Below, piece after piece: positions 19,426-31,535 of a DNA stretch of 64,000 bases (within the stretch, counting starts at the first letter, position 1; the number at the start of each line of letters is the position of its first letter). A program made the position numbers and the translations under genes. The stretch comes from Pseudochrobactrum asaccharolyticum (GTDB lineage: Bacteria > Pseudomonadota > Alphaproteobacteria > Rhizobiales > Rhizobiaceae): NCBI RefSeq assembly GCF_003314995.1, contig NZ_QNRH01000003.1, forward strand, positions 382,553-446,552, read 5' to 3'. The notes beneath the pieces were generated by a model that searched no databases, was not told the origin of the DNA, and saw only the letters and a program-made list of their open reading frames with translations.

Positions 19426-20205
19426 ATGAGCATAGCTGGCATATGGCAAAATGAATACGGATCACGCATGACCCTGACAGTGCGTGGTTCAGTCGTTGAA
19501 GGTGTTTACGCATCGACAACCGGTTCTACCGGTGAATTCAGCGTGACAGGCTGGGCTTGTGAAAACGCAGCCACTACAGAGGCCGGACAGCCTGTTGCTC
19601 TTTCGATCAAATGGCATACGCTCGTTGACGGGGAGGCAGATGCAAGCTGGAACTGGGCATCTGCAATGGGCGGTCAGGTCAATATTGTTGATGGTCGTGA
19701 AGCAATGGTTTTGTCACACTTTATGATTGCCTCGCGATCATTCGAAGGCCTATGCAAGCACGGCGTATATATCGATAAGCTGACATTCTACCGGATCAGT
19801 GATGTACCAAAACCAGTCGAAAACCTTAACTTTATTGAGGCGAAAGCTGATGATCCTATGAGCGGATCGTGGATAACATCTGACGGGAGCCTGATGGATA
19901 TTTCTGTCCGGTATGAGAGCGAATACAGGTTCGGCCACCTGAGCGGCTTCTTACATTTCGATGGTATGAAACTGGCTTTATCCGGCTTCACTGATGTGAA
20001 GGCAGAAGATGATCAGCTTGATCTGCAGGCTACAAGTATTGTTGTGCATGATGCGCTCAATAATAGTACCATCGCGATGGGTGGATTTTTGAAGCTGAAA
20101 GACGGTGCATTAGAATTGCAGGTGCTGACTAATCAGACGACAGGCAGTGAAGTCAGCTATACGCAAAGCCAGATCAGTTTCTTACGTTTTACCCGTAAGG
20201 TTTAA
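19426..20205 (+). CDS. Two-domain avidin-like protein
   Basis: Protein with a tandem avidin-type beta-barrel, 259 residues from ATG 19426 (GAGGG seven bases upstream; ATG 19420 is too close to it). No signal peptide, so probably cytoplasmic, unlike most secreted avidins. Domain 1 (residues 5-124) aligns by eye with streptavidin: N9, S13, Y28, S30, W63, W77 and D117 correspond to N23, S27, Y43, S45, W79, W92 and D128. These include the residues that hold the ureido ring of biotin. The positions of W108 and W120 are occupied by H98/F99 and L109. Domain 2 (about 146-256) repeats the pattern G-S-W...D-G-S but has T151 for the first Asn and no Tyr or Asp equivalents, so it is probably non-binding. 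It lies before a LAL regulator and a hydantoin-type locus. Ligand unknown: biotin or another cyclic urea are both possible. Confidence 0.78.
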   Translation: MSIAGIWQNEYGSRMTLTVRGSVVEGVYASTTGSTGEFSVTGWACENAATTEAGQPVALSIKWHTLVDGEADASWNWASAMGGQVNIVDGREAMVLSHFMIASRSFEGLCKHGVYIDKLTFYRISDVPKPVENLNFIEAKADDPMSGSWITSDGSLMDISVRYESEYRFGHLSGFLHFDGMKLALSGFTDVKAEDDQLDLQATSIVVHDALNNSTIAMGGFLKLKDGALELQVLTNQTTGSEVSYTQSQISFLRFTRKV

Positions 20206-20209
20206 TATA

Positions 20210-20243
20210 AATCTGCCAGGCGCACAGCAGTGCCTGGCAGATT
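20210..20243 (+). terminator. Stem-loop after the avidin-like gene
   Basis: Perfect 12-base inverted repeat AATCTGCCAGGC / GCCTGGCAGATT with a ten-base loop, starting a few bases after the stop. No T-run follows, so it may be a weak terminator or a processing hairpin between the avidin-like and regulator genes. Confidence 0.6.
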
Positions 20244-20314
20244 AATGAGCTGGGATAGTTTCAGACGCTTGGTATTCAGCTCCGGCCGCAAGCAATCTGC
20301 TCATGGAGGGAGCA

Positions 20315-23035
20315 ATGCCAGATTATCCAATCATTCCTGATATTGAACAGCTGCTTCAGCTCAAGCTGATGGTCCCGCGCCTGCCGGTAAATCTGGTGAA
20401 CAGACCCAGATTAATAGAGATATTAGACAGCGCTCCTGACCACTCTTTTATAAAATTTATTGCACCGGCAGGTTTTGGAAAAACAACCTTGTTGGCGCAA
20501 TGGTGCGCGCATTTATCAGCACGTGGCGAAAAAGTTGCCTGGCTGTCACTGGATGACAGTGATGCCGATCTGTACAGGTTTTTGACAGGAATTGTGCGCG
20601 CACTGGAAATTGCACAGATTGATACCGGCATCTTGTTATCAAAGATTGACCGTGATGCCTCTGAACTCAGCATCAATAACTTGCTGCGTGATTTGTACAA
20701 AGTTTTAGCGGGCGTGCGTGAACCCGTCACGCTGATCTTGGATGATTATCATCGTGCATCGAACAATCATCTGGATGAACTATTAGAGCATCTACGCAGT
20801 CATTTATCCGCGCATGTCCGGATTTTGCTCAGTACTAGATTACGGGCTGAGAATACGCATCGTCATAAATTCATTGCTTCAACTCTGGTTGAGATAACCA
20901 GTGATATGCTGCGCTTTACGCCCGAAGAGGCGCGTCAGGTTCTCAATATCGATATTTGTGATACGGATCGCGACGTGTTGGTGGAGCGAATTGAGGGATA
21001 TCCCGTTGTGTTGCAGCTCGCGCGGCTGGTGGCCTTTCAAGGGCAGTCTTCGCCGGATGTGCTGGAGCGGTTAATGGCACGGGGCGGGCATCTCTGGAGT
21101 TTTCTGACTGAGGAAGTGCTGCGCAATCTGCCGGAAGAGGTTGTCGATTTCTTGCTGGATACATCGATATTTGACCGCTTTACCGTGGAAATCGCGGATG
21201 TCGTACGGCAGCGTAAAGATAGCTGGCAAATCATGTCGCAGTTAGAAACGCTGCAATCATTATTGACGCCGTTGGATTCCAATAATCACTGGTATCGTTA
21301 TCATCATCTTTTTGCAGAATATTTACAGGCTCAGTTACGGCAGCGTTACCCGGCAAAACTGGCTGCGCTGCATTTGCGCGCCTCCGAAGCCTTCCAGCAA
21401 TATAACATATTGGGGGAGGCAGTACGCCATGCCAGTCTGGCCGGTGATTATGGTCGCTGCACGCAGCTGATTGAATCCGCCGGAGGATGGCGGCTGGTGC
21501 TTTATGGCGGCATGAGCCAGCTCAACCAGTTGCTGAATTACATTCCTAAAGCCGAGAGACTGTCACATCCGAGATTATTGCTCGCCGAAGCCTATTTAAT
21601 GCTGAAAAGCGGAAATATGACAGATGCTCGCACAACATTTAATCTGGTTGCACAATCAATGCCGGATTTCCCGCCGGACTGGGATTTGCTGGATGAATGG
21701 GGGCGTGATTTTTTCAGCGTTGATGTGCTCATCCGAACCTATGAAGATAATAGTGTTAACGCCAATTATCTTGCATTCTTTGAAAAAATCAAAGACTGGC
21801 CGCCGGAAACTGACGGGCTTGCTTATGGTGTACTCGGTTGTGCGGGGGCTGTTTATGCGTTGTGTCTCGGCAGGTTGAATGCAGCAGAAGAATTTGCCCG
21901 AAAAGCGATGACCGCGATGCGGTTTGATAACTCGGTTCTCGGTCTGAATTACTGTTTTATCCATGCAGCCATTGCCTGCACATATCGTGGTGAATTGCGC
22001 AGCGCGGCTGCTTATTTGTCACGTGCACAAGCAATGGCTATCGAGAATTTTGGCGAAGACAGCGGGCTGAAGGCAATTATCGATGTCTTACTGGTGATGG
22101 TCAATCAATGGGGCAACAATGATCTGAGCATTGTCTCTGCTGAATATGATGCTTCATTTCAGCAAGTCTGCGACTATGACGGCTGGTTTGACATCTATGC
22201 GGCAGGGCTGGATGCCCGCTTCTGGATAGCATGGAAAAGCAGGGATATTCGTAAGCTTGATCAGGTGATCCGCGATGGCGCCAACCTGACCCGCTCACGT
22301 GGTCTTGACCGTCTTTCCGGGCTGGTTGAAGCGCAAACGCTGCTAAGGCATTGTCTTGTGCAGGACGAAAAGTCCGCATTTGCTGTCGCGCAACATCTTG
22401 GTCAAATATATCCGTTGGGATGCTGGCGGGAAAACGCTGCTAAGTGGCGACCATATCAGGATGTGGGCTACGTACTGATCAGCTGGTTGCTCACGCATAA
22501 TATTCAGCAAGCAAAATTACGGGCTGATGATCTGTTGTCTTGTGCAAAAAATTACGGTGCCGGTCTCTATCAGATTCGTGCTTTGTTATTGCGTGCCCGT
22601 GTTGCCCAAGCGTTAAAGGATCGTGAGAAAGCGTGCGGGCTGATCGGACAGGCCGTTGAACTTGCGGCAGCGGAAAAGATTATTCGTCCTTTTCTCGAAC
22701 AATACGAATTGGCACAGTGTTTTACGCAGCTTAAGCGTGAATTATGGGAAACCGGCCGCCATCCGGTCGAAGCTTCTTTCTTGTCGGATGTCACTGATAT
22801 TCTGAGTGAGTTCTATCCGGATACGCAACAAACACTGCTGGTTTTAAGTGCCCGTGAACAGGAAGTGATGCAAGAATTATCACGCGGATTGACGAATAAG
22901 GAAATCGCGCGTGTTCTGGATATGACGGAACATACTGTGAAGTTTCATTTGAAAAATATCTTCGCAAAATTGAACGTCGACAGACGTGCCCACGCGATTG
23001 AGATTTACCGAAGAACGGAAGCTTCGACCCTATAA
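20315..23035 (+). CDS. LuxR family, MalT-type (LAL) ATP-dependent regulator
   Basis: Large STAND-class transcription factor, 906 residues from ATG 20315 (GGAGGG just upstream, preferred to ATG 20303). N-terminal NTPase with Walker A APAGFGKTTLL near residue 51 and Walker B-like TLILDDYH near residue 142, a long helical, TPR-like sensor region (about 340-820), and a C-terminal LuxR helix-turn-helix LSAREQEVMQELSRGLTNKE (about 840-900). Proteins of this build bind a small inducer and ATP, oligomerise and activate catabolic operons. It sits between the avidin-like gene and the racemase-hydantoinase genes and is the only regulator in the locus. Confidence 0.92.
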   Translation: MPDYPIIPDIEQLLQLKLMVPRLPVNLVNRPRLIEILDSAPDHSFIKFIAPAGFGKTTLLAQWCAHLSARGEKVAWLSLDDSDADLYRFLTGIVRALEIAQIDTGILLSKIDRDASELSINNLLRDLYKVLAGVREPVTLILDDYHRASNNHLDELLEHLRSHLSAHVRILLSTRLRAENTHRHKFIASTLVEITSDMLRFTPEEARQVLNIDICDTDRDVLVERIEGYPVVLQLARLVAFQGQSSPDVLERLMARGGHLWSFLTEEVLRNLPEEVVDFLLDTSIFDRFTVEIADVVRQRKDSWQIMSQLETLQSLLTPLDSNNHWYRYHHLFAEYLQAQLRQRYPAKLAALHLRASEAFQQYNILGEAVRHASLAGDYGRCTQLIESAGGWRLVLYGGMSQLNQLLNYIPKAERLSHPRLLLAEAYLMLKSGNMTDARTTFNLVAQSMPDFPPDWDLLDEWGRDFFSVDVLIRTYEDNSVNANYLAFFEKIKDWPPETDGLAYGVLGCAGAVYALCLGRLNAAEEFARKAMTAMRFDNSVLGLNYCFIHAAIACTYRGELRSAAAYLSRAQAMAIENFGEDSGLKAIIDVLLVMVNQWGNNDLSIVSAEYDASFQQVCDYDGWFDIYAAGLDARFWIAWKSRDIRKLDQVIRDGANLTRSRGLDRLSGLVEAQTLLRHCLVQDEKSAFAVAQHLGQIYPLGCWRENAAKWRPYQDVGYVLISWLLTHNIQQAKLRADDLLSCAKNYGAGLYQIRALLLRARVAQALKDREKACGLIGQAVELAAAEKIIRPFLEQYELAQCFTQLKRELWETGRHPVEASFLSDVTDILSEFYPDTQQTLLVLSAREQEVMQELSRGLTNKEIARVLDMTEHTVKFHLKNIFAKLNVDRRAHAIEIYRRTEASTL

Positions 23036-23191: not shown

Positions 23192-24028
23192 ATGTCAGCC
23201 ATATCGCATACAGAGCAGCCGGCAACAACGCCATTGAAAATTCTATGGGTTAATCCCATCAATCAATCGGGCTATGACCAGCCTATTGCAGATTTGATTG
23301 AACGCGTGAAGCTGCCCAATACTGAAGTTCACGTTGTGTCACTTGATATTCCCGAGCCGGTGAAGCTGACCAATCTTGAATGGCGCGGATTTGAAAGCAA
23401 AATCTGGTTTCCGGTTACAGCCATTGCCAATTATGCGGCAGAAAACGGCTATGATGGTTATGCGATTGGTTGCTTTTACGATACTGCTCTGGATGAGGCG
23501 CGTGAGGTCTCCGGCGATGCAGTCGTGTGTGCACCTTGCCAGTCGGCCTTGCAGATTGTTTCCAATCTTTGCAACCGCTTCTCGGTGGTAATCGGAGTGC
23601 AAAAATGGAAGGTGCAGATGGAAGATCGCATCCGCCATTATGGTTATCATGACAGACTGGCTTCATTCCGTACAATTGGTTTGCATGTTGACGAGTTTCA
23701 GCAGGACAAGCAATGCACTGAAGATGCTATCCGTAAAGCTGTACGCGATGCGATTGAAATCGATAAAGCAGAAGCCATTATTCTCGGCTGCACAATTGAA
23801 TTCGGCTTCTATGCGCAACTGCAAAAAGAATTCAATGTGCCGATCGTAGATGCGCTCTATGCCTGCTTTAAAGGTACGGAAAATGCAGCGCTCAATAAAG
23901 TCCAGTTCGGCTGGAAACCGAGCCGGCTCTATAGCATGGCTCCGCCGGAAGCCGCGCGTCTGAAAGAAAGCGGCATTTTTGCTGCACCTGCACCGATTGC
24001 AAACACAGTGATCGTTCCGCGCGCCTAA
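23192..24028 (+). CDS. Asp/Glu/hydantoin racemase family protein
   Basis: Cofactor-independent racemase-type enzyme, 278 residues. N-terminal ILWVNPINQSGYDQP resembles hydantoin racemase starts. The two cysteines of the two-base mechanism are present: GCFYDTALDEAREV near residue 98 and ILGCTIEFG near residue 199. GAGGGAGAGGAC precedes ATG 23192. Hydantoin racemase is the best guess because HyuA/HyuB-like proteins follow; aspartate/glutamate racemase or maleate isomerase-like activity are alternatives. First structural gene behind dyad copy B. Confidence 0.85.
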   Translation: MSAISHTEQPATTPLKILWVNPINQSGYDQPIADLIERVKLPNTEVHVVSLDIPEPVKLTNLEWRGFESKIWFPVTAIANYAAENGYDGYAIGCFYDTALDEAREVSGDAVVCAPCQSALQIVSNLCNRFSVVIGVQKWKVQMEDRIRHYGYHDRLASFRTIGLHVDEFQQDKQCTEDAIRKAVRDAIEIDKAEAIILGCTIEFGFYAQLQKEFNVPIVDALYACFKGTENAALNKVQFGWKPSRLYSMAPPEAARLKESGIFAAPAPIANTVIVPRA

Positions 24029-24124: not shown

Positions 24125-25024
24125 ATGAAAACTCGCGCAACCGGCAAAAATGCAGCATATATCTGTGCTGCTGCCATAACAATTTTAACGCCATTATTGA
24201 GTGTGACGCCCTCAAAAGCAGGGAATTTTATCGGGCATTCGACACCGGGCAAACCCGGCTATGCCATTCAGTTCTGGCCGAGCTTTTCGCACAAATCGGG
24301 CGGCGCTAACTCTGCGGGTAGCTTTTATCAGCTGGCCTGGTTCAGTGAAACCGGACTGACCGGCACCAAGCGCGATCAGTTTGAGCTCTGGCTTGGTTTT
24401 AATGCAGGCTATGCAGGTACAACATCCGGCTCCGGCGATGCGCAGTGGGGTGCCACCGCACCACAGATCGGTTTCGAGTACTATTACGAGGTTGTTCAGC
24501 CTGAAGTAGAGGCCGGAAAAGCCGGACATCGCAACTGGTGGATCAGTCCGACATTGATGGTCAATACCCCCAACGGCAACGATAAATCGAGCGGTTTTGG
24601 TGCTGGAACGAACCAGTTTTCTGTTGCCTTTAACATCAATAATTACATTGCCTATGATCGCTGGCAACTGACCGTTTCACCGGTCTCAGCGCTGTATTCC
24701 TTTGAAAACCGGCATAAATCTGAATGGATTAACGGCAAGCAAAAACGTTTGCGCGGTGGCTTGTCGCTGACCTTTGCAGATGCCGCCCTTGGCTATCGTG
24801 TGACGGATGATCTGAGTGTCGGTATTCATCATCAGTTTGATGTTTTTAACAGTGCGTCATCCGATTTTAAACGCAGCGAAAGAGGGGCGGTTGGCCCGAG
24901 CTTTACCTATACGGGCTTTGCTTCAAAGGGGTATTTTATGTCTGCGACGCTGGATTTTGACTACTACAACAGAGGCACCACCCGCAGCACGACCCTGAAT
25001 ACATGGCTGGCGAAAACGTTCTGA
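24125..25024 (+). CDS. Outer-membrane channel, phenol-MetA-degradation (PF13557-like) family
   Basis: Predicted outer-membrane beta-barrel, 299 residues with a signal peptide (ATGKNAAYICAAAITILTPLL, cleavage near SKAG). The mature chain starts NFIGHSTPGKPGYAIQFWPSF and shows alternating aromatic/polar strands ending in the terminal F (TWLAKTF) expected of barrel proteins. Members of this family lie in catabolic operons for aromatic or nitrogen compounds and are thought to pass the substrate across the outer membrane. Placed between the racemase and HyuA genes. Confidence 0.75.
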   Translation: MKTRATGKNAAYICAAAITILTPLLSVTPSKAGNFIGHSTPGKPGYAIQFWPSFSHKSGGANSAGSFYQLAWFSETGLTGTKRDQFELWLGFNAGYAGTTSGSGDAQWGATAPQIGFEYYYEVVQPEVEAGKAGHRNWWISPTLMVNTPNGNDKSSGFGAGTNQFSVAFNINNYIAYDRWQLTVSPVSALYSFENRHKSEWINGKQKRLRGGLSLTFADAALGYRVTDDLSVGIHHQFDVFNSASSDFKRSERGAVGPSFTYTGFASKGYFMSATLDFDYYNRGTTRSTTLNTWLAKTF

Positions 25025-25109
25025 AGCTTTACGCGGCAAATCAGACAACACCCGATCTTACAATGCATGATCAGGCATTCTCCTGAACTAAGTCTTGGGA
25101 AATATTGAG

Positions 25110-27185
25110 ATGAACAACAAAACAATACGTGTAGCAACGGATGTCGGGGGGACATTTACAGATCTCGTTTGCTTTGAAACGGATAAGCAAACGGGGCAAT
25201 CCCGCATCATTACAGCCAAGTCAGACACCACGCCGCCAAACTTTGAGCAGGGCGTTCTGAATGTTCTGGATAAAGCGCAGATTGATCCCGCTACAGTTGA
25301 TTTTCTGGCTCACGGAACAACGGTTGTTATCAATGCGCTGACGGAACGTAAAGGCGTTAAAGTCGGGCTTATCACGACCGAAGGTTTCCGCGATACTTTG
25401 GAAATCGCCCGTGGGAATCGTCCTGATTTTTTCAACCTGCACTATAAAAAACCGGAGCCGTTTGTCCCGCGCTATCTGCGCCGTGAATTGCAGGGACGCC
25501 TGTCCTATAAAGGGGAGGAGCTGACTGCTCTTGATCTGGCGCCGCTTGCTGACATTCTCGCCGATTTTAAGCGGGAAGGTGTTGAGGCCGTCGCGGTTTG
25601 CTTTCTCCATTCATATGCCAATAGTGCGCATGAAGAAGCAACATTGGCAGAGATTAAACGCCTGTGGCCGGAAGTGTCCGCTGTTTCATCACACCAGATC
25701 ACTCGTGAATGGCGCGAATATGAGCGCTGTAATACCACGGCTTTGTCGGCCTATGTTCAACCATTGGCTGAGCGTTACCTGTCGCGTCTTGCGAGCGGAT
25801 TACAGGAAAAGGGGTTGCGCAGCGATCCGTATATTATGCAGTCCAATTGCGGCGTGAGCACTCTTGAGACGACTGCACAAATTCCCATTACCATGGTGGA
25901 ATCCGGTCCTGCATCCGGTTTCTGGGGCGCGGCAGAACTTGGTAAGCTGATTGATGAACCTAATATTCTCGCACTTGATATCGGGGGCACGACCGCAAAA
26001 TGCTCTCTGATTGAGAAAAGCGAAGTTAAGATCAAGACCGATTATTGGATCGAGCGTGATCAGACCTCGGCAGGCTATCCGATTATGGTGCCGGTTGTGG
26101 ATCTGGTGGAAATCGGCAATGGCGGCGGATCAATCGCCTGGGTCGATAATTTTGAAGAGCTGCATGTGGGGCCGCAATCCGCAGGGGCATCACCGGGGCC
26201 TGCTGCCTATGGCAGAGGCGGCGATAATGCCACGACAACCGATGCCAATTTATGGCTCGGGCGCATCAATAAGGATTATTTCTGTGGCGGTGAAGTTGTT
26301 GCCGATATGGCAGCTACAGAAGCTGCGATTAAACAGGTTGGCGACAGGCTGGGCATCAGCACTGATGAAGCCGCACGGGGCATCATCCGTATTGCTAATA
26401 ATAATATGGTCAATGCGCTGAAACTGGTGTCGCTGAATCGCGGGCATGATCCGCGTGAATTTACACTGGTTGCTTTTGGCGGCGGCGGCGCATTGCATGC
26501 GGTTGCACTTGGACTGGAACTGGGTGTTAAAAAGGTCGTTATTCCTGCCGGCGCTGCGGTATTCTCAGCATGGGGGATGATGATGTCGGACTTGCGACGC
26601 GACTATTTTGTAACCCGTCTTGCCGAGCTGGATACAGGCTCTACCAAAGTGATCGAAGATGTCTTCTCCGAAGCTGAAACGCTCGCCTTGGCACAGTTCG
26701 CGGCTGAGAATATTGACGCGAGCAAGGTGGAGTTCCAGCGCTATGGCAAATTCCGCTATCAAAATCAGGAACATACTACTGAGGTTCTGATCGAGGCCGG
26801 AGCAATTACACCGCAGCGTATTGCTGCAATTGAAAGCGCTTTCCACGAACTCTACGAGCAGGAATATACCTATCGTCTGAATGCACCGGTTGAAATGGTC
26901 GGTATCCATCTGGTGGCTTCGTCCGAGGTTGGCAAGTTGACCATGAAGAAGCAGGAGCTGTCCGGTGCAGATGCGCAGACGGCACTCAAAGGCCGTCGTG
27001 ATGTTGATTATGCACTGGAAGGGATTCATAGCGCCGCGATTTATGATCGTGATCTGCTTATGCCGGGTATGAGATTCATGGGGCCTGCCATTATTGAGGA
27101 TTCCGGTACAACCGTTGTCATTCATCCGGACAATGACGTTCAGATCGATGGTTACGGCAATATTCACGTCGTTCTGGCGGCATAA
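25110..27185 (+). CDS. hyuA: Hydantoinase/oxoprolinase subunit A (HyuA family)
   Basis: ATP-dependent cyclic amide hydrolase, subunit A. 691 residues from ATG 25110; the ORF can extend to TTG 25095, but the family starts with a short lead before VATDVGGTFTDLV. The ASKHA phosphate-binding motif DVGGTFTD at the N-terminus and a second LALDIGGTTAKCSL near residue 290 are present, as is GNGGGSIAWVD. It catalyses ATP-driven opening of lactam or ureide rings (5-oxoproline, N-methylhydantoin, hydantoin, caprolactam) together with HyuB, whose gene follows 11 bases later. The substrate cannot be told from motifs; the racemase upstream favours a 5-substituted hydantoin. Confidence 0.9.
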   Translation: MNNKTIRVATDVGGTFTDLVCFETDKQTGQSRIITAKSDTTPPNFEQGVLNVLDKAQIDPATVDFLAHGTTVVINALTERKGVKVGLITTEGFRDTLEIARGNRPDFFNLHYKKPEPFVPRYLRRELQGRLSYKGEELTALDLAPLADILADFKREGVEAVAVCFLHSYANSAHEEATLAEIKRLWPEVSAVSSHQITREWREYERCNTTALSAYVQPLAERYLSRLASGLQEKGLRSDPYIMQSNCGVSTLETTAQIPITMVESGPASGFWGAAELGKLIDEPNILALDIGGTTAKCSLIEKSEVKIKTDYWIERDQTSAGYPIMVPVVDLVEIGNGGGSIAWVDNFEELHVGPQSAGASPGPAAYGRGGDNATTTDANLWLGRINKDYFCGGEVVADMAATEAAIKQVGDRLGISTDEAARGIIRIANNNMVNALKLVSLNRGHDPREFTLVAFGGGGALHAVALGLELGVKKVVIPAGAAVFSAWGMMMSDLRRDYFVTRLAELDTGSTKVIEDVFSEAETLALAQFAAENIDASKVEFQRYGKFRYQNQEHTTEVLIEAGAITPQRIAAIESAFHELYEQEYTYRLNAPVEMVGIHLVASSEVGKLTMKKQELSGADAQTALKGRRDVDYALEGIHSAAIYDRDLLMPGMRFMGPAIIEDSGTTVVIHPDNDVQIDGYGNIHVVLAA

Positions 27186-27196
27186 GGGAGAGACCA

Positions 27197-28864
27197 ATGA
27201 ACAAGCATCTTCAAGACCCTATTACGCTGCGGATTATCCAGAACTCACTTCAGGCAACGGCGGATGAAATGTTCGCAGTCATGCGCAAGACTGCCATGAG
27301 TTCGATTATTTATGAAGTGCTGGATATGGGAACCGGCATTACAGACCCTAAAGGTCAGCTGGCATCCTCCGGCGCGGGTATTCCTGCATTCGTCGGTGTT
27401 CTCGACAAAGCGGTGAAAGTGCTGGTTGAGAAGTTCAACCAGCCGGGCGATATTGAACCGGGCGATGTTTTCGCAACCAACGATCCTTATTATGGCGGCG
27501 TTACCCATCTCAACGATATTATTGTGGCAATGCCCGTCTTCTCGGGAGATCAGATTATCGCATGGACAGCCGCTATCGGACATAATTCGGATGTTGGCGG
27601 CATGGCTCCGGGCTCGCTGAGCGGTGACGCAAACGAGATTTTTCAGGAGGGCTTACGCCTTCCGGCGATTAAAATGATCTCAAGGGGCGAGCCGATCCGT
27701 CCGGTCATTGAAATCATCAAAACCAATTCCCGTATGCCGGATGTCCTTGAAGGCGATGTCTGGGCGGCGATTGCCTCTGTGCGGATTGGCGCCAAGCGGT
27801 TGGTGGATGTCAGCGAGAAATACGGCGTTGAAACATTCAATCATGCCATGAGCTCATTCATGGATATGGGGGAGAAGATTGCGCTGTCCGAATTGCAGAA
27901 ACTGCCGAAAGGACAGTTTGAGCTTTCTGAAGAACAAGATGACGGCCGTATCTTTAATGTGAAAATTACGATCACAGATACGGAATTCATTGTTGATCTG
28001 CGTGATAATCCTGATCAGTCGGACAATCCGGTCAATACCAGTCGTGACGGTGTGATGATCTCCGCACAGATGCTCTTTAAATCTCTGACCGATCCTTATT
28101 CTGCGGCCAATGAAGGCTCATTCCGGCCTATCAAACTTCTGACCCGTAAAGGCTCGGTCTTTGAGGCGCAAGAACCGGCACCGATGGGCTTCTACTATGA
28201 GATTGAGTTGCGGGTTTACGATATTATGTGGCGCTGCCTTGCACCGCATGTATCTGATCGTCTTGCAGCCGGTCACTTCGCCTCGGTTTGCGGAACATTT
28301 ATCAGCGGTCTTCATCCTGATACCGGTCGCCAATATACAATTATTGAACCGCAGATCGGCGGCTGGGGCGCAAGCCGTACCGGCGATGGCAATAGTGCGA
28401 TGTTCTGTGGTTTCCATGGTGAAACCTATAATTGTCCGGCTGAAATCAATGAAGCGCGTAACGGGGTTTTTGTTGACCGTATGGAACTGAACCTTAATCC
28501 GGGAGGTGAGGGGAAACATACGGGCGGACGCGGTATTATTATGGATTATCGCGTGCGGGCTAATAACTGCCTTTTGACCATGGGCTATACCCGTTCGAAA
28601 TTTCCGCCTTGGGCACTTGAAGGCGGACATGAAGGCTCTTCCAACTATGTTGAAGTGCTGCGTGCAAAAGACGGCAGCAAAGAAACATACGCTTTTGTCT
28701 CCGGTTTGAAGGCTTACACGAACGATGTGATCCGTGTTGTGACCGGTAATGGCGGCGGATTTGGCGATCCGAAAGAGCGTGATCAAACCCTCGTGGCACA
28801 AGATATTCGCAATGGCGTGCTGAGTCTTGAGCGGGCCCGCTCTGTCTATGGCTATCAGGGCTGA
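27197..28864 (+). CDS. hyuB: Hydantoinase/oxoprolinase subunit B (HyuB family)
   Basis: Partner of HyuA, 555 residues. Recognisable blocks: ITLRIIQNSLQATADEM at the start, FATNDPYYGGVTHLND near residue 93, AAIGHNSDVGG, SRDGVMI, and GNGGGFGDPKERD near the C-terminus. GGGAGAG lies ahead of ATG 27197. HyuA and HyuB form the active complex; in some homologues they are fused. Two stem-loops follow at 28902-28964. Confidence 0.92.
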   Translation: MNKHLQDPITLRIIQNSLQATADEMFAVMRKTAMSSIIYEVLDMGTGITDPKGQLASSGAGIPAFVGVLDKAVKVLVEKFNQPGDIEPGDVFATNDPYYGGVTHLNDIIVAMPVFSGDQIIAWTAAIGHNSDVGGMAPGSLSGDANEIFQEGLRLPAIKMISRGEPIRPVIEIIKTNSRMPDVLEGDVWAAIASVRIGAKRLVDVSEKYGVETFNHAMSSFMDMGEKIALSELQKLPKGQFELSEEQDDGRIFNVKITITDTEFIVDLRDNPDQSDNPVNTSRDGVMISAQMLFKSLTDPYSAANEGSFRPIKLLTRKGSVFEAQEPAPMGFYYEIELRVYDIMWRCLAPHVSDRLAAGHFASVCGTFISGLHPDTGRQYTIIEPQIGGWGASRTGDGNSAMFCGFHGETYNCPAEINEARNGVFVDRMELNLNPGGEGKHTGGRGIIMDYRVRANNCLLTMGYTRSKFPPWALEGGHEGSSNYVEVLRAKDGSKETYAFVSGLKAYTNDVIRVVTGNGGGFGDPKERDQTLVAQDIRNGVLSLERARSVYGYQG

Positions 28865-28964: not shown

Positions 28965-28998
28965 GAGCCGGAAATCTTGTAATCTATGAAGGATGTTG

Positions 28999-30195
28999 AT
29001 GATGATTGGTTGTTCCGATTATGCAACAGAATTGGCAGCTATTCGCCTGTGGGAAGACAAGGCACCTGCAATCACAGATGACGAGCGTTGGCAGCGTATT
29101 GGTAATGCCAGAAAGCTGATGGCTGAAGAGGGCGTTGACGCACTTATCATCGGTGCCGGAACCAGCCTGCGATATTTTACCGGTATTCGCTGGGGGATGA
29201 TTGAACGGCTGGTTGCTTTAGTTCTGCCTTTGCAGGGAGAGCCGGTTATTATTTGCCCTGCTTTTGAAGAAGGGTCGCTAACCGCAGAATTCTCTATGGA
29301 TATACGCGGTTGCTATTGGCAGGAACATGAAAGTCCCTATGCGCTTGTTGCCCGTGTCCTCGCGGAGAACCAATGCGCTGCGCTGGCCATAGACCCGTCC
29401 CTTCCGTTCGGCATGGTGCACGAGTTGAGCTGCGCTCTGGCAAACGTCAAAATATCTTCAGCAAGCAACATTGTTGATCAATGTCGCCGCATTAAATCGC
29501 CTGCGGAAATTGCGATTTTGCAACAAGCCAAGCTGATGACCCTTGAAGTGCAAAGGCGCGCATCCCGTATTCTGAAAGCGGGAATGAAGGCAAGTGAGGT
29601 TTGTTCCTTTATCACTGAAGCACATAAAGCCATTGGCAGTGACGGCACGACATTTTGTATTGTCCAGTTTGGCACTTCCACCGCCTTTCCGCATGGGTTG
29701 CCGCAGGACGATGTTCTGGCAGAGGGAGATATGGTGCTGGTTGATACCGGCTGTCTCGTGGAGGGATATAATTCCGATATTACACGCAGTTATGTTTTCG
29801 GAGAACCTGATGCCGAGCAGCAGCGTATCTGGAATATCGAAAAAGAAGCACAATTAGCGGTCTTTAACGCTGCCCGTCCGGGTGCTCTTTGTGAGGTTCT
29901 GGATCATGTTGCCCGTACGATTCTTGAACAGCACGGATTGGGACCTGACTACCAGCTGCCGGGTTTACCTCATCGCACAGGTCACGGCATCGGCATGACT
30001 ATCCATGAGGCACCATATCTCGTACGCGGCGATAAAACTCCGCTGCAAGCGGGAATGTGTTTTTCCAATGAACCGATGATTGTTATTCCGGATCGCTTCG
30101 GCATCCGCCTTGAAGACCATTTTTATCTCACGAAGACAGGTGCGCAATGGTTTACGGAACCAGCACTTAGCATCACGCAGCCTTTCGGAGAATAG
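28999..30195 (+). CDS. M24 family metallopeptidase (Xaa-Pro peptidase/creatinase fold)
   Basis: Pita-bread hydrolase, 398 residues from ATG 28999 (GAAGGA five bases upstream; ATG 29002 is also possible). Creatinase-type N-domain then the catalytic domain with all five metal ligands visible: VDTG (near 249), NSDITR (near 260), GHGIG (near 330), SNEPMI and RLEDHF. Members cleave Xaa-Pro peptides, creatine or other N-carbamoyl/amidino-like substrates. In a hydantoin-type operon it may open or hydrolyse the product of HyuAB; that is inference. Confidence 0.87.
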   Translation: MMIGCSDYATELAAIRLWEDKAPAITDDERWQRIGNARKLMAEEGVDALIIGAGTSLRYFTGIRWGMIERLVALVLPLQGEPVIICPAFEEGSLTAEFSMDIRGCYWQEHESPYALVARVLAENQCAALAIDPSLPFGMVHELSCALANVKISSASNIVDQCRRIKSPAEIAILQQAKLMTLEVQRRASRILKAGMKASEVCSFITEAHKAIGSDGTTFCIVQFGTSTAFPHGLPQDDVLAEGDMVLVDTGCLVEGYNSDITRSYVFGEPDAEQQRIWNIEKEAQLAVFNAARPGALCEVLDHVARTILEQHGLGPDYQLPGLPHRTGHGIGMTIHEAPYLVRGDKTPLQAGMCFSNEPMIVIPDRFGIRLEDHFYLTKTGAQWFTEPALSITQPFGE

Positions 30196-30245: not shown

Positions 30246-31535
30246 ATGTCTGGTTTATCAAACGAGGCAGCTACGAGCGGCTATGCCAAAGAACTGGTGC
30301 CTGAAAGTGAACAGGGCACTGGCTGGAAGATTTTCTTTATTGTTGCAGGCAGCCTGTGCGGATTACCTGTTTTTATTCTTTCAGCGCATATTTTCTCAAG
30401 CCTTGGCTTTGTTCAGGGCATGGCAGCTGTGGCTGTGGGAGGGGTAATTTCGGGTTTGCTGGGGGCTATGACGGCTTTTACCGGTTCTAAATCGCGCATG
30501 GGGCTGGCGTTGCTCGCAGATCAGGCATTTGGCCCATGGGGAGCAAGTCTGGTGAAACTGGTTATCGCCATTTCACTGATCGGATGGTTTGGTGTGAATA
30601 TTGGCGTTCTGGGTGTTACTGCTGCCAGTGCGCTCACACAGATGACCGGCTATAATATTGCTGCACTCACCGTTGGTTTGCCCGTCTGTTTACTTATTGC
30701 GGGTATCACTCTCTACGGCGCCTCCGGTCTGGAGCGTTTAGGCAATATTCTTGTGCCGGCTACTTTGCTGGTATTGATTGCTTCACTGGTTTTAGTTGCA
30801 CCGCAATTGGGAGAGGTTTGGAGCAAGCAGGGCAACGGTGCAATCAGTTTTGGCGGCGCTGTTTCTGCGGTTGTTGGTGCCTATGTTGTGGGCATCGTTA
30901 TTCAGCCGGATTATGGTCGATTTGTCCGCCGTCCTGCATTTGCGGCAATGGGGGCAGGTGTGGCGCTGGGGATTGCTTATCCGGTCATCATGACCATGTC
31001 TTCTGTCGCAAGTCTTGCATCGGGAACACCTGAATTTATTTCGGCAATGATCCTGCTGGGGTTTGGCTTACCTGCACTATTAGTGTTGCTGCTGGGGGCG
31101 TGGATTGATTCATCCGCATGTCTGTATTCTGCCAGCCTGTCACTGGCCAATCAGTTTCCGCGTTTCAGGTTCATTACGATTATCGCAGCAATAACAGTTG
31201 TGGGCGTGGTACTGGTTGTAGTGGGTGCGGATAAAGCGTTTATCCCGTTTTTGATCGCGCTGAGTGTAAGCCTGCCGCCGCTGGCAACAATTCTGGTACT
31301 TTCCGCGCTTTTGCCGCAACCGTCACACCCTCATGCTGTTCACAGAGCCATTCCAGTAGTGTGCTGGGCATTGGCAACGATTTTCGGTTTAATGACCAAT
31401 TACGGCTATTGGAGCTTTTCAACATTGCCGACATTTGATGCCGTTCTGATCTCGGCTGTTATCTTTATTATGTTGCGGGTTGCGGTCTCTTTTGCACCTT
31501 TAACGTCAGCCGTTAGTGACGGGTCAGTCGAATAA
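30246..31535 (+). CDS. NCS1 family permease (cytosine permease CodB-like)
   Basis: Inner-membrane importer, 429 residues with about twelve hydrophobic segments. CodB-like features are GLPVFILSAHIFSSLGFVQG near residue 37, a GWFGVNIGV motif near residue 118, and IQPDYGRF near residue 219. The NCS1 family carries purines, pyrimidines, allantoin and hydantoins (the hydantoin carrier Mhp1 is a member), which fits the locus. CTGGGGAGGAA precedes ATG 30246. Followed by a terminator at 31560. Confidence 0.88.
   Translation: MSGLSNEAATSGYAKELVPESEQGTGWKIFFIVAGSLCGLPVFILSAHIFSSLGFVQGMAAVAVGGVISGLLGAMTAFTGSKSRMGLALLADQAFGPWGASLVKLVIAISLIGWFGVNIGVLGVTAASALTQMTGYNIAALTVGLPVCLLIAGITLYGASGLERLGNILVPATLLVLIASLVLVAPQLGEVWSKQGNGAISFGGAVSAVVGAYVVGIVIQPDYGRFVRRPAFAAMGAGVALGIAYPVIMTMSSVASLASGTPEFISAMILLGFGLPALLVLLLGAWIDSSACLYSASLSLANQFPRFRFITIIAAITVVGVVLVVVGADKAFIPFLIALSVSLPPLATILVLSALLPQPSHPHAVHRAIPVVCWALATIFGLMTNYGYWSFSTLPTFDAVLISAVIFIMLRVAVSFAPLTSAVSDGSVE

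Follow-up and report, generated by a model that had tools for sequence, protein, structure and literature searches.

Two-repeat avidin-like proteins with a putatively altered pocket recur beside pepsin-like peptidase, HyuAB and regulator genes

What is known of avidins concerns almost only the trapping of biotin, and neither the avidins nor the pepsins of bacteria have a settled role. The closest described systems are those that Laitinen et al. (2021; PMC8033661) termed “Extended avidins”, a clade that includes Marinomonas and that, in the main text of that paper, carries a C-terminal extension of about 150 residues and, in some members (Pseudomonas fluorescens, P. veronii), an N-terminal pepsin-like A1 peptidase. 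The same text identifies no domain in the extension, regards extended avidins as apparently potent biotin binders, suggests a role in defence, reports a secretion signal for about half of avidins, and cites fibropellin as a structural or oligomerisation use of the avidin fold; the words hydantoin, racemase and transcription are absent from it. Bacterial pepsins were predicted to be intracellular by Rawlings and Bateman (2009; PMC2761423), and shewasin D was found mainly in the cytoplasm (PMC4814920); the word avidin is absent from the main text of both papers. HyuAB-type enzymes were grouped as ATP-dependent lactamases in work on caprolactamase (PMC8453981).

The gene analysed here lies in a 64,000-nucleotide stretch of a Pseudochrobactrum asaccharolyticum contig (the window), part of a genome of 4.65 Mb (G000) of the genus Pseudochrobactrum, in which the following features were recognized:

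19426 to 20205, + strand: avidin-like protein of 259 residues with two repeats (translation, PF01382, PDB profile), without a signal peptide by inspection
19426 to 19800, + strand: repeat 1, an avidin domain with N9, S13, Y28, S30, W63 and D117 (Pfam, profile match to PDB streptavidin, family conservation)
19801 to 20202, + strand: linker and repeat 2, diverged and without the contact residues (hhalign of repeat 1 versus repeat 2)
20210 to 20243, no strand assigned: perfect inverted repeat with 12-bp arms and a 10-base loop, between the avidin and luxR genes (read from the sequence)
20303 to 23035, + strand: MalT-like STAND/LuxR regulator of 910 residues with AAA, MalT TPR and LuxR HTH domains (Pfam)
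23192 to 24028, + strand: protein of the Asp/Glu/hydantoin racemase family, 278 residues (PF01177, E 7e-22)
24125 to 25024, + strand: porin-like protein of 299 residues, with a signal peptide and the look of an outer-membrane beta-barrel by inspection
25095 to 27185, + strand: HyuA, ATP-dependent lactamase/hydantoinase large subunit (Pfam, nearest solved structures)
27197 to 28864, + strand: HyuB subunit (PF02538, E 8e-147)
28993 to 30195, + strand: M24 Xaa-Pro dipeptidase (Pfam, comparison with solved structures)
30246 to 31535, + strand: NCS1-type cytosine/purine/allantoin permease (PF02133, E 6e-16; NCBIfam)

The order avidin, luxR, racemase, porin-like, HyuA, HyuB, M24 and NCS1 runs on one strand and is followed by kdp; on its other side, before the avidin gene, are genes for a PotD-like ABC transporter and an agmatinase-type protein, and neither has a match upstream of avidin in the two congeners. 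Pfam and NCBIfam agree with an earlier note on this DNA, which had named the racemase, HyuA, HyuB and NCS1 as neighbours. The 910-residue regulator scores 289 bits with the NCBIfam MalT model, under its cut-off of 537; the solved relatives of the racemase are a putative hydantoin racemase, the epimerase OpaE and an allantoin racemase; and those nearest to HyuA are N-methylhydantoinase (E 6.5e-118) and 5-oxoprolinase. HyuA and HyuB belong to the HyuAB/caprolactamase enzyme family described in PMC8453981, with scores under the caprolactamase equivalog cut-offs. The porin-like protein has no Pfam or NCBIfam match and found nothing as a query against plasmids; homologues at 41-43% identity are present in six Pseudomonas-type loci.

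The reading frame runs from ATG 19420 or the in-frame ATG 19426 to the stop at 20205, and the second start, which gives 259 residues, is likelier because GAGGGA abuts ATG 19420 directly (inspection). The N-terminus, MSIAGIWQNEYGS, has no signal peptide by inspection. PF01382 (Avidin) matches residues 3-75 (E 1e-6; 29.5 bits against a gathering cut-off of 24); a profile of repeat 1 from 19 members, compared with the PDB, gives streptavidin as its best match (E 6e-14, a chain of 343 residues matched in two stretches) and core streptavidin 1mk5 at about 7e-8. Repeat 2 has no Pfam match and found no avidin in the PDB with its own profile; profile-profile comparison of the two halves with hhalign gives P values of 9.6e-8 and 1.8e-8 in two settings, with a probability of 94%, and thus supports the view that the second half is a strongly diverged avidin repeat. 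The signal-less protein of 259 residues with two avidin-type repeats that the earlier note had described is in this respect borne out. Sequence profiles favour the avidin fold, an eight-stranded barrel; the AlphaFold models, made with an alignment of three near-identical sequences, reached a mean pLDDT of 34.9 for the whole protein and 42.5 for repeat 1 and were discarded as unusable, so that the reading of the pocket rests on alignment.

The window protein fits the Extended avidins already described (PMC8033661), and the family itself is therefore not new: 134 residues follow repeat 1, much like the extension of about 150 residues, and the window extension is alignable with those of the Marinomonas-type (g591) and Pseudomonas-type (g560) members, labels that we inferred from PMC8033661 and PMC2761423. 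The comparison differs from the main text of PMC8033661 in two respects: the extension, there without an identified domain, is here a second avidin repeat by profile comparison, and the members, there judged potent biotin binders, have lost W108 in 27 of 27 cases. A pepsin-like peptidase, which that text reports for some members and does not require, has no PF00026 match in the window's genome. New relative to that text are the linkage to hyu genes and the linkage to regulators. With streptavidin and single-domain avidins the protein shares the sequence of repeat 1 and the polar urea-ring contacts; unlike them it has two repeats per chain, no Trp wall and, by inspection, no secretion signal.

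We assembled a family of 27 members, namely the window protein, two congeners (G1143, G1145), a Novosphingobium plasmid protein, seven Pseudomonas-type and 15 Marinomonas-type proteins, and G703, which has a single repeat; the avidin of G1440, shortened near a contig end, was counted for repeat 1 only, and an internally deleted remnant (G1439) and a weak match with internal stops (G1563) were left out. Full-length relatives are rare among the genomes sampled: one of 151 genomes of the taxonomic family and one of 385 of the class have one, both times the window's own genome, as do three of seven genomes of the genus and one of 72,556 plasmid records (Novosphingobium sp. EMRT-2 pABRDHK22, 39.5% identity over the full length); none was found among viral contigs. 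A phylum survey with PF01382 matched 16 of 398 genomes and led to the full-length relatives G1009, G1097 and G942, and a search of the genus of G1009 and G1097 matched seven of 199 genomes, G1009 and the dropped G1563 included, adding the pepsin-avidin fusions G1538, G1670, G1546 and G1671 and an avidin alone in G1495.

In streptavidin, N23, S27, Y43, S45 and D128 are what we take to be the polar contacts to the ureido ring of biotin. MAFFT aligns N9, S13, Y28 and S30 of the window protein with the first four, as had been proposed from the sequence; the fifth proposed pair, D117 with D128, is a register read by eye, and MAFFT sets D128 on L119, two columns away. The equivalents of N23, S27, Y43, S45 and W79 are kept in the alignment in all 27 members, and the Asp equated by eye with D128 in 26; the pocket residues are strictly conserved among members 33-51% identical to the window protein, including those without pepsin (G000, G1143, G1145, Novosphingobium, G1495). 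The proposed replacement of W108 and W120 extends to the whole family, with no Trp at either place in any of the 27 members: past its conserved GQ, repeat 1 is free of Trp throughout (a script flag in G1453 was a false match to an earlier GQ, and its true stretch has none), and the W108 place read by eye, one residue before the MAFFT column, holds His in 12 members and Asn in 15. The MAFFT W108 column itself has Ser (11), Leu (7), Thr (4), Phe (3), Val (1) and Ala (1).

For comparison we used 18 other avidins of the same surveys, two of them near-identical. All 18, which are not proven biotin binders, have Trp at W108, against none of the 27 family members, whereas W120 is Trp in eight and absent in ten. 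As N23, S27 and D128 are invariant in these controls too, these three residues alone give no pointer away from biotin; Y43 is Tyr in 8/18 and S45 is Ser in only 2/18. The alignments suggest that the family has kept the polar groups that hold the ring and replaced the aromatic wall, which, as far as an alignment can tell, weakens the view in PMC8033661 of extended avidins as potent biotin binders.

Genes for HyuA, HyuB and a racemase stand beside the avidin gene in ten of the 27 members (the window, G1145, G1143, Novosphingobium and six Pseudomonas-type), loci that are not independent and represent three lineages, Pseudochrobactrum, Novosphingobium and one Pseudomonas-type genus; none of the three genes was found at 16 control loci of 7 to 20 kb, G029 and G192 having been omitted from the 18 controls for want of long flanks. 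The block common to the three Pseudochrobactrum genomes comprises avidin, luxR, racemase, porin-like, hyuA and hyuB, and the locus of P. kiredjianiae (L004) is close to that of the window (avidin 88%, luxR 96%). M24 was not found in the stretch compared of G1145 and is present only as a fragment in G1143; in P. kiredjianiae a weak M24 fragment lies between hyuB and NCS1 (L004, about 19647-19862), where the gap is too short for a whole gene, so that M24 seems lost. A record titled Bacillus subtilis strain SK6B4 (L003, JAHREI010000011.1) carries the locus at 93-99% identity; we placed it in the window's genus, and its label looks wrong.

On the Novosphingobium plasmid the order is avidin, luxR, TonB receptor, racemase, hyuA, hyuB and M24, with identities to the window of 83% for the racemase, 66% for M24, 57% for luxR, 54% for HyuA, 42% for HyuB and 40% for the avidin. 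The window's HyuA and HyuB are nearer (77% and 71%) to those of a Roseateles locus that lacks an avidin; HyuAB therefore seems to have been exchanged, with avidin, regulator, racemase and M24 staying together. Adjoining the avidin cluster on this plasmid is a second cluster of LuxR, HyuA-like, DUF917 and racemase genes (L006:7886-13951). Of the six hyu-linked Pseudomonas-type genomes, five of 5.8-7.3 Mb were searched as a whole (G1009, G1538, G1670, G1546, G1495), and in each the single full-length HyuA match is the one beside the avidin. With four HyuA matches in the window's genome and three in each of its two congeners, adjacency is less telling in Pseudochrobactrum.

The survey for avidin genes beside hyuA and hyuB that the earlier note had called for thus finds the pairing in three lineages, but in 17 of the 27 members the stretch compared contains no hyu genes, and G942, the one Marinomonas-type genome searched as a whole, has no HyuA match. 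It follows that the avidin is not tied to hydantoin metabolism. The note's statement that no avidin-hydantoinase pairing had been described agrees with our literature search, which gave no paper that combines avidin with hydantoinase (full text, with preprints and most subscription papers outside its scope), none on a two-domain avidin or avidin-like protein with hydantoinase, and none linking biotin, avidin, hydantoinase and degradation; the family as such, however, had been described as Extended avidins (PMC8033661).

By number of members, a pepsin-like peptidase is a commoner partner than the hyu genes, being fused or adjacent in 22 of 27. In six of the seven Pseudomonas-type members, as first met in G1009 and G1097, the peptidase forms the N-terminal and the two-repeat avidin the C-terminal part of one protein; six of the seven (G1097 included) have genes for a racemase, a porin-like protein, HyuB and HyuA beside them, the exception being G1671, whose genome has no full-length HyuA match. 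Upstream of the G1671 fusion and on the same strand lie an M20 peptidase and a PLP alanine racemase (L093:5801-10890), again a racemase and a peptidase, from other families than in the hyu loci. In the genus of G942, 16 of 48 genomes have a pepsin match; all 15 Marinomonas-type members have a full-length pepsin gene with the avidin gene directly downstream (shortened by the contig end in G1440). In G1439 a pepsin-avidin remnant (L109:9449-9774) matches the first 32 pepsin and the last 65 avidin residues, the middle being missing. The Marinomonas-type loci have no match to hyuA, hyuB or racemase and a few M24 matches at 24-27%, and G703 has a distant pepsin beside its single-repeat avidin on an 11-kb contig.

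Both D-S/T-G motifs are kept in all 14 Marinomonas-type pepsins scanned and in P0005, P0006 and P0008; like the bacterial pepsin homologues of PMC2761423 and PMC4814920, the pepsins of these loci keep both Asp motifs and, by inspection, have no signal peptide. The Marinomonas-type pepsin of L098, 406 residues long, has D49 as listed for Marinomonas sp. MWYL1, with the second Asp at 272, not 274. PF00026 has no match in G000, G1143, G1145 or the Novosphingobium plasmid (plasmid only). Near two further bacterial pepsins (G641, G614) neither an avidin nor a hyu match was found, and the avidin-pepsin link is therefore limited to one pepsin subfamily. In a 1.5-Mb genome (G1150), a pepsin-like gene is divergent from hyuA-hyuB, with no avidin in the 15 kb compared (L089:6751-11953).

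Regulator genes form the third recurrent neighbour. The avidin gene lies directly before a MalT-like regulator gene in the window, the two congeners and Novosphingobium, and a hybrid sensor kinase gene lies directly after it in 14 of 15 Marinomonas-type loci (in the fifteenth the contig ends there). Behind the kinase, 12 of the 14 loci encode a protein that BLAST groups with the response regulator-GGDEF protein of G942; the domains were checked with Pfam in four kinases (L039, L104, L106, L107) and in one GGDEF protein (L039). Five of the six hyu-linked Pseudomonas-type loci have a luxR match, at the opposite end from the avidin, and the contig of the sixth (G1097) ends just past hyuA. Aminobacter and Rhizobium tumorigenes have LuxR relatives (26-27% identity) next to hyuAB and no avidin match there; such a regulator can therefore do without an avidin.

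Given these neighbours, the likeliest reading, which we advance tentatively, is that the protein descends from the avidins and serves in the cytosol as a receptor for a cyclic amide or ureide, passing the signal to the regulator encoded next to it: by inspection it has no signal peptide, its polar pocket is intact, a regulator lies downstream in two unrelated settings, and genes for cyclic-amide catabolism with a racemase, and often a peptidase, accompany it in ten of 27 members. The polar groups of repeat 1 would hold the ring of a different, more polar cyclic amide or ureide, either hydantoin-like or a cyclic peptide derivative; such a ligand is probable because the polar urea contacts are kept and the Trp wall for the ring and tail of biotin is lost. 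Repeat 2, which has no contacts, is probably a built-in dimer partner or the face that contacts the regulator. Depending on whether a ligand is bound, the avidin would alter the activity of the neighbouring regulator (MalT-like STAND/LuxR in the window and Novosphingobium, a hybrid sensor kinase in the Marinomonas-type), and the window regulator would in turn induce the genes for taking up the compound (porin-like protein, NCS1), for opening its ring (HyuAB) and for its racemisation and Xaa-Pro cleavage. Since G942 has no HyuA, the ligand cannot always be a HyuAB substrate. A diketopiperazine pathway, for which the literature search gave no match, would be compatible with HyuAB and the Xaa-Pro dipeptidase. 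Biotin catabolism by HyuAB was also considered and dropped, as nothing seen in the locus fits side-chain oxidation.

The number of pepsin partners invites another reading, which we consider unlikely: that the two-repeat avidin is the partner of a pepsin-like peptidase, as substrate catcher, inhibitor or stand-in for a missing propeptide, and that copies without a pepsin are either relics or now work with a different peptidase. It would explain the 22 fused or adjacent pepsins (six Pseudomonas-type fusions, 15 Marinomonas-type genes directly before the avidin, the G703 pair), the motifs kept in the 14 Marinomonas-type pepsins and in P0005, P0006 and P0008, and the M24 peptidase in the pepsin-less loci of the window, Novosphingobium and G1495. 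Yet the pocket is kept where no pepsin match was found (G000, G1143, G1145, the Novosphingobium plasmid) and in G1495, where the avidin stands alone in its locus; M24 is no clean substitute, as G1097 has an M24 match together with its pepsin-avidin, G1145 has none in the stretch compared and G1143 only a fragment; and the G1150 pepsin stands beside hyuAB without an avidin. That the protein binds biotin so as to sequester it, to store it or to serve in defence, in line with what the main text of Laitinen et al. (PMC8033661) proposes for Extended avidins, seems to us improbable: the kept polar contacts and W79 equivalent speak for it, as does the potency that the same text ascribes to these proteins, but Trp stands at the W108 place in all 18 other avidins and in none of the 27 members, whose repeat 1 has no Trp anywhere in its second half, no biotin-synthesis family was found among the window neighbours scanned with Pfam and NCBIfam, and the missing signal peptide (inspection) makes secretion against others unlikely.

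We give still less credence to the avidin fold being a structural or oligomerisation module only, with an incidental gene neighbourhood; the contact-less repeat 2 and the fibropellin precedent cited in PMC8033661 would suit it, and strict conservation of the repeat 1 pocket at 33-51% identity and the recurrence of the neighbours in three lineages argue against it. The receptor reading could be part of a wider history, about which we are rather doubtful, in which one avidin branch gave up biotin, its members came to recognise cyclic amides or ureides (or cyclic peptide derivatives) inside the cell, and gene order coupled them to unrelated signalling proteins, namely STAND/LuxR regulators and hybrid kinases with GGDEF response regulators, some members being fused to a pepsin-like domain as well. 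The recurrence of an altered avidin with a pepsin, HyuAB and definite regulators provides a concrete, testable setting for the questions of what bacterial avidins and bacterial pepsins do. If that wider history is right, these loci contain an avidin-based sensing module for ring-opening catabolism, and a pocket that takes another cyclic urea or amide would be a natural starting point for avidin binders of ligands other than biotin.

Two minor observations concern the borders of the avidin gene. The inverted repeat at 20210-20243 is altered in L003 and L004 and was not seen in the avidin-luxR gap of Novosphingobium; it may be a terminator, an attenuator or an operator. Just upstream of the avidin gene in L003, on the opposite strand (L003:9643-9834), a stretch 55% identical to LuxR residues 261-318 is perhaps a relic of a second regulator copy.
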